Shown piece after piece: positions 14,158 through 58,702 of a stretch of 64,000 nucleotides of DNA (its first letter is position 1; every line of letters starts with the position of its first letter). The DNA is from Deuterostichococcus epilithicus (lineage: Eukaryota; Chlorophyta; Trebouxiophyceae; Prasiolales; Stichococcaceae). The stretch spans positions 620,001-684,000 of the forward strand of contig JAVTLE010000014.1 in the NCBI GenBank assembly GCA_033439295.1, given 5' to 3'. The translations under genes and the position numbers were made by a program. The notes under the pieces are model-generated. The model was not told where the DNA came from and searched no databases. It saw nothing but the letters and a program-made list of their open reading frames with translations.

Positions 14158-14158
14158 T

Positions 14159-14248
14159 TCTCCTGGTGGGGCTCGAACCCACGATCTTAGGCTCGCTTCC
14201 ATCTCTTCAACATAAGACCTATGCATTAACCAACTATGCTACAGGAGA
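14159..14248 (-). tRNA. tRNA-Ile (anticodon UAU), intron-containing
   Basis: On the minus strand all arms pair: acceptor TCTCCTG/CAGGAGA (7 bp), D stem GCAT/ATGC with an AGTTGGTTA loop, anticodon stem TAGGT/GCCTA, T stem GTGGG/CCCAC with loop TTCGAGC, discriminator A. The loop reads C-T-TAT-G, so the anticodon is UAU. About 17 bases between positions 37 and 38 are an intron, as expected for eukaryotic tRNA-Ile(UAU). The anticodon arm resembles plant elongator tRNA-Met (TAGGTCTCAT) with one base changed. G37 is unusual where A is expected. A T run follows the 3' end. Confidence 0.75.
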
Positions 14249-19234: not shown

Positions 19235-19256
19235 GAACTCCCCACAACAAAAAGTG

Positions 19257-19360
19257 GGGGCAATCCGCGAATTGAACGCGGGACCTCTCGCAAATTAGCC
19301 TCACGGCTGAGATTTCTCTAGAGTCCCTAAGCGAGAATCATACCACTAGACCAATTGCCC
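19257..19360 (-). tRNA. tRNA-Pro (anticodon AGG), intron-containing
   Basis: The minus strand gives acceptor GGGCAAT/ATTGCCC with discriminator C, a plant-like D arm (TGGTCTAGTGGTATGATTC), anticodon stem CTCGC/GCGAG, loop TT-AGG-G then an about 31-base intron, T stem CCGCG/CGCGG with loop TTCAATT. A TTTTT Pol III terminator follows at about 19248-19252, embedded in a CCCCAC/GTGGGG hairpin. MITE copy A ends only 22 bases downstream of the gene's 3' end. Confidence 0.85.
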
Positions 19361-54903: not shown

Positions 54904-55410
54904 GCTGCTTGCTTGTGAGTTGATCGGCGAGTGAACGAGTGACTTTGTCAGTCTACAAACGTAGGTAGGTAAGTTCAGCATACTTGATACAAATGGTCGT
55001 GAGTCGAGATCTAGCAAAAGTTTGAGCCGGATGCGGCAAAAGGAAATACTTGATGTTGCTACAAGACCTGATCTGATTGGAAATCCCATAACAATGACCC
55101 TTCGGTTTGTCAAGGGACCGGTGGCCGGTGTTCATAAGGGACACGTGTGGTCCGCGTCGAAGCCACGGGAGCTGCAGAGTCGAACAACATTGCTCCAAGG
55201 CCGTGCTTTCAAGTTCTCAGTAAGAGTGTAAGCATTACGTGACGTCGAGCAAAGGCCATGTGGAGTGGTTCACGACAACGTTCGACTTGCAGAGTAGCAG
55301 CCGGCGACACACGAATCACGACCGCCAAGTCGCCACACCTGGTTGCGGTGCCCTCTACTTCCAAATGGAGGGTCACATGAGGTAAAACAGACCCAGCAGC
55401 AGCAAAAACA
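54904..55410. other. AT-richer spacer left of the tRNA-derived array
   Basis: No gene supported. GAGCCGGATGCGGCAAAAGG at about 55025 resembles the core of the downstream satellite unit (GCCGGATGCGG plus an A run), perhaps a stray copy. Confidence 0.4.
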
Positions 55411-55411
55411 C

Positions 55412-56347
55412 ACCAAGCCGGATGCGGGGCTCGAGAGCTGCCGCCGCCGCCGGCAGGCGGGGGTGGGATGAGCCCTAAGCCACCGAGCAGCGGCAAAAGC
55501 ACACCAAGCCGTTTGCGGGGCTCGAAAGCTGCCGCCGCCGCCAGCAGGCGGGGGTGGGATGAGCCCCAAGCCACCGAGCAGCGGCAAAAACACACCAAGC
55601 CGGATGCGGGGCTCGAAAGCTGCCGCCGCCGCCGCCGCCAGGCGGGGGTAGGATGAGCCCCAAAACGTCGAGCAGCGGCAAAAACACACCAAGCCGGATG
55701 CGGGGCTCGAAAGCTGCCGCCGCCGCCGCCGGCGGGCGGGAGTGGGATGAGCCCCAAAACGTCGAGCAGCGGCAAAAGCACATCAAGCCGTTTGCGGGGC
55801 TCGAAAGCTGCCGCCGCCGCCAGCAGGCGGGGGTGGGATGAGCCCCAAGCCACCGAGCAGCGGCAAAAACACACCAAGCCGGATGCGGGGCTCGAAAGCT
55901 GCCGTCGCCGCCGCCGCCAGGCGGGGGTGGGATGAGCCCCAAAACGTCGAGCAGCGGAAACAACACACCAAGCCGGATGCGGGGCTCGAAAGCTGCCGCC
56001 GCTGCCGCCGGCGAGCGGGAGTGGGATGAGCCCCAAAACGTCGAGCAGCGGCAAAAACACACCAAGCCGGATGCGGGGCTCGAAAGCTGCCGCCGCCGCC
56101 GCCGGCGGGCGGGGGTGGGATGACCCCCAAAACGTCGAGCAGCGGCAAAAACACACCAAGCCGGATGCGGGGCTCGAAAGCTGCCGCCGCCGCCGCCGGC
56201 GGGCGGGGGTGGGATGACCCCCAAAACGTCGAGCAGCGGCAAAAACACACCAAGCCGGATGCGGGGCTCGAAAGCTGCCGCCGCCGCCGCCAGCAGGCGG
56301 CGGTGGGATGAGCCCTAAGCCACCGAGCAGCGGCAAAAACATACCAA
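55412..56347. repeat. Tandem satellite (10 units of 91/94 bp) carrying the 3' end of the tRNA-Lys gene
   Basis: The core GCCGGATGCGGGGCTCGA (or the variant GCCGTTTGCGGGGCTCGA) starts at 55417, 55508, 55599, 55693, 55787, 55878, 55972, 56066, 56160 and 56254, and finally at 56348, where it is the real tRNA-Lys 3' end. Each unit also has the CAAAAACACACCAA flank, whose A run is the Pol III terminator of the tRNA (minus sense), a CAGCGGC motif and a variable (GCC)n/GGCGGG part that accounts for the 91 versus 94 lengths. Units 2 and 5 share the GTTTGC variant, so blocks were copied together. Similarity to the tRNA stops just inside the T arm, where GGGTTCGA becomes GCTTTCGA. Confidence 0.95.
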
Positions 56348-56419
56348 GCCGGATGCGGGGCTCGAACCCGCGACCACCAGATTAAGAGTCTGACGCTCTG
56401 CCAACTGAGCTAACCCGGC
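56348..56419 (-). tRNA. tRNA-Lys (anticodon CUU)
   Basis: The minus strand folds canonically: acceptor GCCGGGT/ATCCGGC (one G-T pair), D arm GCTC/GAGC, anticodon stem TCAGA/TCTGG with loop CTCTTAA, T stem GCGGG/CCCGC with loop TTCGAGC. Boxes A and B are intact. A TTTTT terminator lies 8-12 bases downstream. No intron. The discriminator position reads T in place of the usual G; this base also starts the repeated flank of the satellite. Confidence 0.95.
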
Positions 56420-56905
56420 GGTTGTGCACCGTCCCTGCTGTGCGCGGGGGGCTGTTCAGTCATGTTCGAGGCAGGTCCCGAGGCGTGTCTCGGGGCTTCC
56501 TTGGTGGCCGCCGAGCCGGGTTCAGCTGCTATGACCTGTAAGCCGTTTGCAGTTCAAATAATCCACGGGAAGAGTTTGACACCTGCGCTGGTGCCGCCGG
56601 CGGCCGCCCCACCGCCCGACCCAGGCCCGCCCGAGCTCGGCGAGGTGTGTGCCTGCGCCGAGTTTGAGGACGCCAGGCCGCCTGCACCACCGTTGGCAGT
56701 ATGTGCACCATAGCCCGCGCCGTGGTCTCCGCCATCAAGGCAGAGTTTGTGGGCGGCCGCGACAGCTGCCGCCGCAAGAGCGGCGCCGCCAGCCGCCGCA
56801 GTTCGCACAGAAGGGGTGGCAGACCAGCAGCAACGGCAGCAGCAGCAGCAGGCGCCGGCGGCGCAGCAGCAGCAGCAATAGCAGCAGATGCAGTAGCAGC
56901 AGCAG

Positions 56906-56958
<53 letters not shown>

Positions 56959-58702
56959 CCAACGACAGCAGGCACCTGAGCAGTGGCAGCGGCAGTGGCA
57001 GCGGCGGCGGCAGCGGCAGTGGCAGCGGCGGCGGCAGCGGCAGCGGCGGCGGCAGCGGCAGCGGCGGCGGCAGCGGCAGCGGCGGCGGCCGCAGCAGGGG
57101 CGGCACCTGCTTGCGGTGGACGTCCCCCATTGGGTGTGGCCCTGGGGCCGTCTACCCCCGATCCCAGACTCAAGGAGCCACACACCCTCGCCGCGCGGGC
57201 GGGCTACGCCCACTCTGGCCCGGCCCGCCGCTCGCCTTGCGGCAGCAGCAAGTGTTCGCTGCCATGGGTGTCCTGCTGCCCTGCCCAGCACCGCTCTTGA
57301 GGCCAGGGCTGGGAGCCTGGGATGTTTGCCGTGGAATTCCGATCAAAGGCGCACAGCCGGGCTGCGCCCCAAGCGCCGGCCCGGCCCGGCCCGGTCGAGC
57401 ACTCGCCTTCAGGCAGCGGCAAAGCTCGCTGCCGTGGACGTCCCGCCGCACCGCTGCCCTTGATGCCAGAATCGGTCATGTTGGTTATGGTGGGCAATCT
57501 GCACACGACACCAAGCCCTTGCGCTTACAGCGACCCAGCTTGGACCCTCAGCCTTCGAGCTCGATGTTGCCGCAGCGTTTCCATCACTTGCCGCTGCGCC
57601 TTTGCGATGCCAGCTGCTTTGCTACCACTCCCAATTGCTCATGCTGCGTTGAGTATTGGGATGTGTTTGTCGCCGACGCAAGCGGGAGCCTGCTGGCGCC
57701 CCGACTGTAGCAGCGATCTCAATGTCCTCATGCGTCTGGGGGGCCCCATTGGGGACCACTCGGGCCAGGAGCTGCACACCCCATGCGTGGCAGGGAGGCA
57801 GTAGCCCACTCCTGCAGGTGGCTTCGCAGTGCCCAGCCTGGTGTGCTGCGTGTATGGCAGCTGCTTCAGAATCCAGATGCCACAGGCACCCCGGAGCAGG
57901 GTTGTTGTGAGCCTGCATCATCTGACGGTGCAAGCGGACCTCTTCACCTGTGGCGTCCGTCTTGAGCACATTGCGAGACCAGGTTTCACCTGCTGTCGCC
58001 ATGGGTGGGTGCTCTGTCTACGCACGGCCCAACTCTGCAAATTGGGGCGAGAACCTTTCCTAGATCTCAGATGCCGTGAACGTTGACAACCCTGATCGAG
58101 TGCTGCTAGTGTTGGACCATGATCATTGCCGTCTGCCCAACGTGGTGAGCGTGTGGCACATGATATGATGCTGGAACATGGCGGTGTGCAAAGCCCAAGC
58201 TCTTGCGAAGCGGCGGCGGTGACGCACTGAAAAGCATGGATCTTGAGCCAGCGTGAGTTCGAAGCTGACGCCGTTTCGATCGGTGTTGACGCCGAGTACT
58301 GGTGTTGATGTTGAGGCGCCATGTCCACTGCCGTAACGAGCGCAGCCTGCAGTGCAAGCGAGTGCCGAGACGGCAGCTGCGCGCCCTCAACTTAATAAGT
58401 TCACATGTGACTTGCTTGTTAGCAATGTCTGTACATGAAAGCCACCAAATGCCCAGGCTGCACTCGGCGTCAAGCCCAGCTGCCGGCCAGCGCGCATCCC
58501 GTTCCGACACCGCGGACGACGTGCAAACGGCGCCAAACTCTCAGATTCCACCTGTTCTTATGGAGTCACGGAGTCAGTGTTGTACCCAACTGAGCATATC
58601 TTCCACACTCCAAGTTTGGCTCTGCGCAGGTTGATCTTGGATGAAACCCCAGGCACGTTTGCGGCCTGCAGGCTGTGAAAGCGTGCTGACTGACCGAACA
58701 GT
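56420..58702. other. Low-complexity and unresolved sequence; second CAC-motif/CAG element
   Basis: 56580-57110 is the second copy of the 15.1-kb element: PPDPGPPELGEVCACAEF, an A/R-rich part, then imperfect CAG tracts (56820-56962) and GGCAGC/GGCGGC arrays (56980-57095). 57190-57300 and 57380-57470 hold a diverged direct repeat (GCTCGCTGCCRTGG-like). The remainder to 58.7 kb has only motif-free frames (for example minus 57622-58002). Long open frames in the CAG/GGC part arise from repeat composition. Confidence 0.45.

Follow-up and report, generated by a model that had tools for sequence, protein, structure and literature searches.

Copies of tRNA 3´ ends recur downstream of tRNA genes of five families in the nuclear genome of a green alga

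Introduction

In Escherichia coli K-12, the tRNA gene tyrV is followed by a 178-bp repeat present in 3.1 copies. The last 19 nt of tRNA-Tyr, from A58 on, occur three times downstream of tyrV and once more in the tyrT-tyrV spacer, and the units overlap the annotated noncoding RNA rttR and a small protein gene (also tpr; RtT RNA). RtT RNA is reported to be set free from tyrT-operon transcripts (PMC4986893). Among eukaryotes, Entamoeba has repeats beside its tRNA genes that have been attributed to slippage, probably helped by Pol III fork barriers (PMC2652664). We found no description of tRNA-end repeats in nuclear genomes in the titles or abstracts among the matches listed from the open-licence literature.

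Here we describe a stretch of 64,000 nt from the green alga Deuterostichococcus epilithicus (the window), in which a tRNA-Lys(CUU) gene is followed by a tandem array built from its own 3´ end. The algal units have the layout of the tyrT repeats, in that each carries a tRNA 3´ end from the T-loop on and lies downstream of the gene on the same strand. A preliminary description of this DNA, whose author was not aware of any published system built on just such a unit, had overlooked these E. coli repeats. Within the window, the units were not recognized as members of the RtT RNA family in Rfam; the tRNA alone reaches the gathering score there.

Materials and Methods

The window is part of contig C12 of a 46.8-Mb genome in 21 contigs. 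Contigs C20 and C21, which are AT-rich and hold many tRNA genes, were treated as organelle contigs. An AtpE encoded on C21 shares 90% identity with its counterpart in Prasiolopsis wulf-kochii and 84% with that in Edaphochlorella mirabilis, the top matches among those listed under a species name, which points to a probable trebouxiophyte close to the Prasiola clade. The survey compared the 3´-terminal 18 nt of each of 30 nuclear tRNA genes with the gene's own flanks, 1500 bp on each side, at a cut-off of 14/18; for three of the 30 genes, the flank extends just 870-903 bp downstream and less than 32 bp upstream. The set comprises 25 nuclear predictions (63 of 687 candidates were scored), two intron-bearing genes of the window, and three genes found by pattern. 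It was picked independently of the arrays and is an incomplete sample of the nuclear tRNA genes. Tandem arrays with a period of at least 25 were counted with TRF in 83.7 kb of tRNA flank.

Some gene calls deserve comment. With introns allowed, ARAGORN places a tRNA-Pro(AGG) with a 32-nt intron at 19256-19360 (-) of the window, a gene that is not listed at the Rfam gathering score. A tRNA-Ile(UAU) with a 17-nt intron and no 3´-end copies lies at 14158-14248 (-). At L082:871-990 (-), ARAGORN calls a tRNA-Phe(AAA) with a 39-nt intron, yet the box A is of the Leu/Ser type, and the gene was labelled Leu in the survey.

Results

TRF resolved the array in the window as a 94-bp unit with 91% matches, and also as a 279-bp period (94+94+91); as the tRNA gene is placed by ARAGORN and Rfam, array and gene overlap by 20 nt (Table 1). 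The three programs thus bear out the initial observation of ten 91/94-bp units that adjoin, and are in register with, a tRNA-Lys(CUU) gene. Ten copies of the last 18 nt of the gene, each matching at 14/18 or better, were found within 1500 bp downstream, with zero matches upstream and zero on the other strand, and neither the first 18 nt of the gene nor a mid-gene 18-mer had any match downstream. Read along the tRNA strand, a unit runs from position 54 or 55 in the T-loop through the 3´ strands of T-stem and acceptor and a trailer with a T-run into a GC-rich spacer. The units lack box A and the anticodon arm as well as the T-stem 5´ strand; for box A and the anticodon, this had been noted before. 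The preliminary description also had every unit keep the acceptor 3´ strand, the T-run, and most of the T arm. The first two hold, with at least four Ts within 27 nt of 10 of the 11 3´ ends (the gene's own counted) and a T-run down to 3 in one unit; of the T arm, however, just the T-loop and the T-stem 3´ strand remain in the copies, which lack the box B letters G52 and G53. A long imperfect CAG repeat lies 0.4 kb from the gene, at 56825-57097 (+) of the window.

Table 1. Coordinates of the tRNA-Lys(CUU) gene, its array, and its 5´ flank in the window
Feature	Position	Strand	Basis
tRNA-Lys(CUU) gene whose 3´ end is copied	56347..56419	-	ARAGORN; Rfam RF00005, 67.1 bits
Array of tandem 91/94-bp units (10.4 copies, the 3´ end of the gene itself among them)	55395..56366	-	TRF; starts -19 from tRNA 3´ end
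T5 run behind the gene (likely Pol III terminator), recurs in units	56335..56339	-	sequence
Copy 1 of tRNA 3´ end (18 nt, positions 56-73)	56253..56270	-	18-nt comparison
Copy 2 of tRNA-Lys 3´ end	56159..56176	-	18-nt comparison
Copy 3 of tRNA-Lys 3´ end	56065..56082	-	18-nt comparison
Copy 4 of tRNA-Lys 3´ end	55971..55988	-	18-nt comparison
Copy 5 of tRNA-Lys 3´ end	55877..55894	-	18-nt comparison
Copy 6 of tRNA-Lys 3´ end; two substitutions, identical to those of copy 9	55786..55803	-	18-nt comparison
Copy 7 of tRNA-Lys 3´ end	55692..55709	-	18-nt comparison
Copy 8 of tRNA-Lys 3´ end	55598..55615	-	18-nt comparison
Copy 9 of tRNA-Lys 3´ end; two substitutions shared with copy 6	55507..55524	-	18-nt comparison
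Copy 10 of tRNA-Lys 3´ end; distal end of the array	55416..55433	-	18-nt comparison
5´ flank, 82 bp, common to three tRNA-Lys loci, sharp outer border	56420..56501	-	alignment

Two more tRNA-Lys(CUU) genes bear the same array, one on C7 (91 bp, 8.8 copies) and one on C18 (90 bp, 1.9 copies). Across the three loci, the shared 5´ flank aligns with three variable columns and stops at a sharp outer border, a pattern that suggests joint dispersal of gene and array. A 21-nt motif of the Lys unit, with up to two mismatches allowed, has 24 matches in the 46.8-Mb genome, 23 of which are at the three tRNA-Lys loci, and the 24th, in decayed form, sits on C16 in 3 kb of sequence where no tRNA gene is predicted. 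Two decayed tRNA-Lys 3´-end copies about 64 bp apart at this C16 site (L051:1437-1521; C16:636464) are perhaps the remnant of an orphan array. SINEs have a head of box A plus box B and dispersed copies; since box A is absent from the units and all but one of the 24 motif copies lie at tRNA-Lys loci, the arrays do not fit this class. Unit 2 of the C18 locus (L005:3593-3694) contains an additional GC-rich stretch that, by eye, resembles an inverted-repeat insertion.

The preliminary description had proposed a genome search for other tRNA genes with 3´-end arrays, and the survey of 30 nuclear genes brought such copies to light beyond Lys. Seven of the 30 loci have same-strand downstream copies of their own 3´ ends at 14/18 or better, namely the three Lys loci (10, 8, and 2 copies), Trp (12, including two in a decayed repeat next to the array), Arg-UCG (1), Gly-GCC on C16 (2), and Ala-CGC on C19 (3); Ala-AGC on C4 has two copies at 13/18, under the cut-off. 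Because the three Lys loci are paralogs, the independent families number five, and 3´-end copying recurs in Lys, Trp, Arg, Gly, and Ala within one genome. The spacers differ between these families and are about 20-170 nt long.

The polarity is strict in the controls. No gene had copies of its 3´ end in antisense downstream (0/30) or on either strand upstream (0/27 genes with 1500 bp upstream), and neither 5´ ends nor mid-gene sequences had copies downstream (0/30 each). When flanks were compared with the 3´ ends of other isotypes, 8 of 822 tRNA-flank pairs gave 20 matches, 16 of them tRNA-Asp ends downstream of the Lys genes on C7 and C12. Among 29 tRNA genes from the organelle contigs, none has 3´-end copies, so the hairpin of the T-arm alone is not sufficient. 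A 49-bp repeat, present three times on an organelle contig (L013:1576-1720), begins just behind tRNA-Asp and excludes the 3´ end.

The copies begin within a narrow part of the tRNA. Relative to the tRNA 3´ end, TRF starts the arrays at -19 (Lys C12), -18 (Lys C7), -19 (Lys C18), -17 (Trp), -19 (Arg), and +24 (Gly C16). Six of the 12 arrays called in the 83.7 kb of flank begin within -20 to +60 of a 3´ end, and none of the 12 ends at a tRNA 5´ end. TRF called no array at any Ala locus, where the copies are irregular, and a 52-bp repeat (2.5 copies) at +163 of Gly C1 starts outside the T-loop. Direct mapping gave as leftmost matching tRNA position 54-55 for Lys C12 and C18, 55 for Lys C7 (57 in one copy), 56 for Trp, 54 for Arg, 58 and 60 for Gly, and 60-61 for Ala; three decayed distal matches have left edges at 58, 59, and 61, and no mapped copy reaches 5´ of position 54. 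Because this mapping anchored the copies on positions 61-73, the method itself helps to set the right limit at 61, and the left limit of 54 is the one boundary that it does not impose; the TRF starts are independent of the anchor. An edge in the T-loop, a pattern noted post hoc, appears to recur in all five independent families.

Left edges around position 58, in copies that include the trailer and T-run, recall the arrest of reverse transcription at m1A58, and the units could have been templated by RNA if cDNA of tRNA precursors were used in local repair. The edges are spread over 54-61, however, and the Arg unit continues for some 160 bp beyond its T-run. The edge is also the same in E. coli, whose tRNAs are not known to carry m1A58. 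We consider RNA templating extremely unlikely.

The junctions speak to where the spacers come from. Two array-free paralogs of Ala C19, Ala C14 and Ala C12, place the entire expansion at position 60/61 in the alignment, and the Ala C19 junctions consist of GGCGGCCTTCCCGCG, which matches the unexpanded flank, followed by tRNA. At Arg, the two units have one differing site outside the junction, and the distal unit continues into unique flank (GACAGCCGCTTCGCCGCC). The Arg junction passes from GACAGCC into GGCGAAGCGGC, which repeats flank sequence in inverted orientation, and from there into TTCGATCC of the T-loop; the insert is thus an 11-nt inverted copy of flank sequence beside TTCG, which the T-loop shares. 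Of 20,000 shuffles of the insert, 27 had such an inverted match to the 80-nt flank, in a test made after the match had been seen. The Trp junction holds a 7-nt insert for which no source was located, and the distal Trp flank forms a perfect 9-bp hairpin (-14.5 kcal/mol, DNA fold) with the right end of the unit in its loop. The Lys junctions share, by eye, at most 1-3 nt. Template switching, or end-joining with templated insertion, leaves marks like those of the Arg and Trp junctions.

The unexpanded Ala flank has some likeness to the T-arm, which may reflect a decayed older copy, but this likeness is within chance (152/300 shuffles for C14 and 128/300 for C12). Arg is therefore the one locus at which shared sequence is well supported, and we do not claim homology as the cause at Ala. 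In array-free genes, the resemblance between the 3´ flank and the gene's own tRNA end was within chance except for Phe (10/300 shuffles), which we took as noise, one among many tests.

At both Arg and Ala, the spacer is the native flank of the gene and not an element, and no inserted element is needed there. This bears on the idea that the arrays were left behind by a mobile or integrative element which, in the manner of bacterial tyrosine-recombinase elements, inserts into tRNA genes at the T-loop and rebuilds their 3´ ends. Such integration leaves 3´-end copies bounded in the T-loop, and the last good copy of Lys C18, which stops at the tRNA 3´ end without a trailer, would fit it. The family-specific spacers do not, nor does an Arg spacer that runs as native flank into unique DNA, nor do Ala paralogs that are unexpanded and hold the same flank with no element. 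At Arg and Ala, we did not find an element lying between attachment repeats and absent from an empty site, and an integrative origin is very improbable. Of the origins offered in the preliminary description, growth from the tRNA 3´ end and its flank through local duplication or exchange agrees with these results; a by-product of a mobile element does not, given the native-flank spacers and the unexpanded Ala paralogs.

The internal structure of the arrays suggests how they were amplified. Units 2 and 3 of Lys C12 are identical, the two main trailer types of the Trp array are interspersed, and unit identity is almost flat with distance along the array, which lends no weight to exchange between neighbors. 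Together with the 94+94+91 period, these features fit exchange along the array better than neighbor slippage alone. Beyond the Trp array lies a 74-bp repeat (2.3 copies) that holds two poorer tRNA-end copies and is presumably older than the main array.

Diversity in copies, trailers, and spacers, respectively, is 0.043, 0.075, and 0.099 in Lys C12; 0.053, 0.034, and 0.032 in Lys C7; and 0.043, 0.153, and 0.008 in Trp. Lys C7 and Trp thus vary more in their copies than in their spacers, and Lys C12 varies less, which points to no consistent constraint on the tRNA-derived part. A GTTTTGGGGC stretch of the Lys and Trp units was considered as a shared spacer motif and dropped, as by eye it was not seen in the Arg, Gly, and Ala sequences.

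The preliminary description had further suggested that the array might act as a row of partial box B sites, in the form of TFIIIC-only loci, an insulator, or a replication fork barrier. Parts of box B are indeed kept, 7-9 of 11 letters in Lys, 8 in Trp, 10 in Arg, 8 and 6 in Gly, and 4-5 in Ala, but G53 or T54/T55 is changed in the copies. The full consensus GGTTCRANYCC, which fits 25 of the 30 tRNA genes themselves, has no match on the tRNA strand in the up- and downstream flanks of the 30 genes, so that the intact box B of a TFIIIC-only (ETC) locus is missing from these flanks. With no complete box B, and with copies not consistently more conserved than spacers, the TFIIIC and insulator roles are without support; even with 10 of 11 letters kept at Arg, we give the suggestion hardly any credence.

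The units could instead function through RNA, either as read-through small RNAs, like the RtT RNA of E. coli, or as back-up Pol III terminators. Runs of at least four Ts lie behind 9/9 3´ ends at Lys C7, 2/3 at Lys C18, and 11/11 at Trp, as they do behind 10/11 at Lys C12, and the E. coli units contain the annotated rttR. Back-up poly(T) is reported for 39-45% of flowering-plant tRNA genes (PMC11700998). Pairing between spacer and 3´-end copy was matched by few or no shuffles in Lys C7 (1/300 as strong) and E. coli (0/300). It was within chance in Lys C12 (32/300), Trp (159/300), Arg (212/300), Gly (294/300), and Ala (270/300), and an RNA structure common to all units was rejected, since pairing exceeds shuffles in just two of the seven cases. 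Against a function of this kind also stand the greater variability of copies than of spacers in two of three arrays and the 23 of 30 tRNA loci without copies at the cut-off. We regard it as unlikely, and the arrays are probably without function.

Discussion

We think it fairly probable that the arrays are minisatellites of tRNA ends, produced by a duplication during replication or repair with one breakpoint in the T-arm, amplified by unequal exchange, and probably functionless. A replication or repair accident would create a tandem duplication with its left breakpoint in the T-arm of the tRNA (T-loop, about 54-61) and its right breakpoint in the 3´ flank, sometimes where there is a hairpin or a short stretch of shared sequence. 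The gene would be left intact and would gain a second 3´ end with trailer and T-run, and unequal exchange or slippage would then multiply the unit. The left breakpoint might be placed by a stalled fork that meets the Pol III gene head-on, or by the T-arm's own hairpin. The copy pattern itself is solid, in its anatomy, its polarity, its recurrence in five families, the native-flank spacers at Arg and Ala, and the unexpanded Ala paralogs, whereas fork stalling or collision as its cause, template switching, exchange, and the lack of function are what we infer. E. coli has neither TFIIIC nor a box B promoter, and thus neither can be the general cause of an edge in the T-loop.

Put more broadly, the T-arm of tRNA genes might be a recurrent, intrinsic duplication breakpoint in bacteria and eukaryotes, with active tRNA genes repeatedly spawning satellites of their own 3´ ends and the breakpoint falling where a head-on fork meets the gene. 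We offer this generalization tentatively and hold it to be rather unlikely. If fork collision at tRNA genes is the cause, the arrays would be a natural sequence record of collision sites. More immediately, what began as one odd array is now a pattern that several tRNA families share within one genome, its fixed polarity and edge matching the bacterial case. The surprise lies in how the T-loop edge recurs. Repeats of tRNA 3´ ends need not signal integration sites or TFIIIC elements.

Each of the known systems resembles the algal arrays in part. ETC sites have box B-related sequence without box A, as do the algal units, but box B is incomplete in every algal copy examined. In Entamoeba, repeats likewise lie beside nuclear tRNA genes; there, however, whole tRNA genes are found within the arrays, the short repeats are AT-rich intergenic sequence, and tRNA 3´ ends in the units are not mentioned in the part of the report used here (PMC2652664). 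The E. coli tyrT/tyrV locus has tandem units directly behind a tRNA gene, on the same strand, each with a 3´ end from the T-loop. It differs from the alga in being a bacterial operon with no box B or Pol III and with one tRNA species, whereas in the alga several tRNA families are hit, with differing spacers. Judged by this comparison, the algal arrays appear to represent the architecture of the E. coli tyrT repeats in a nuclear genome and across several tRNA families.
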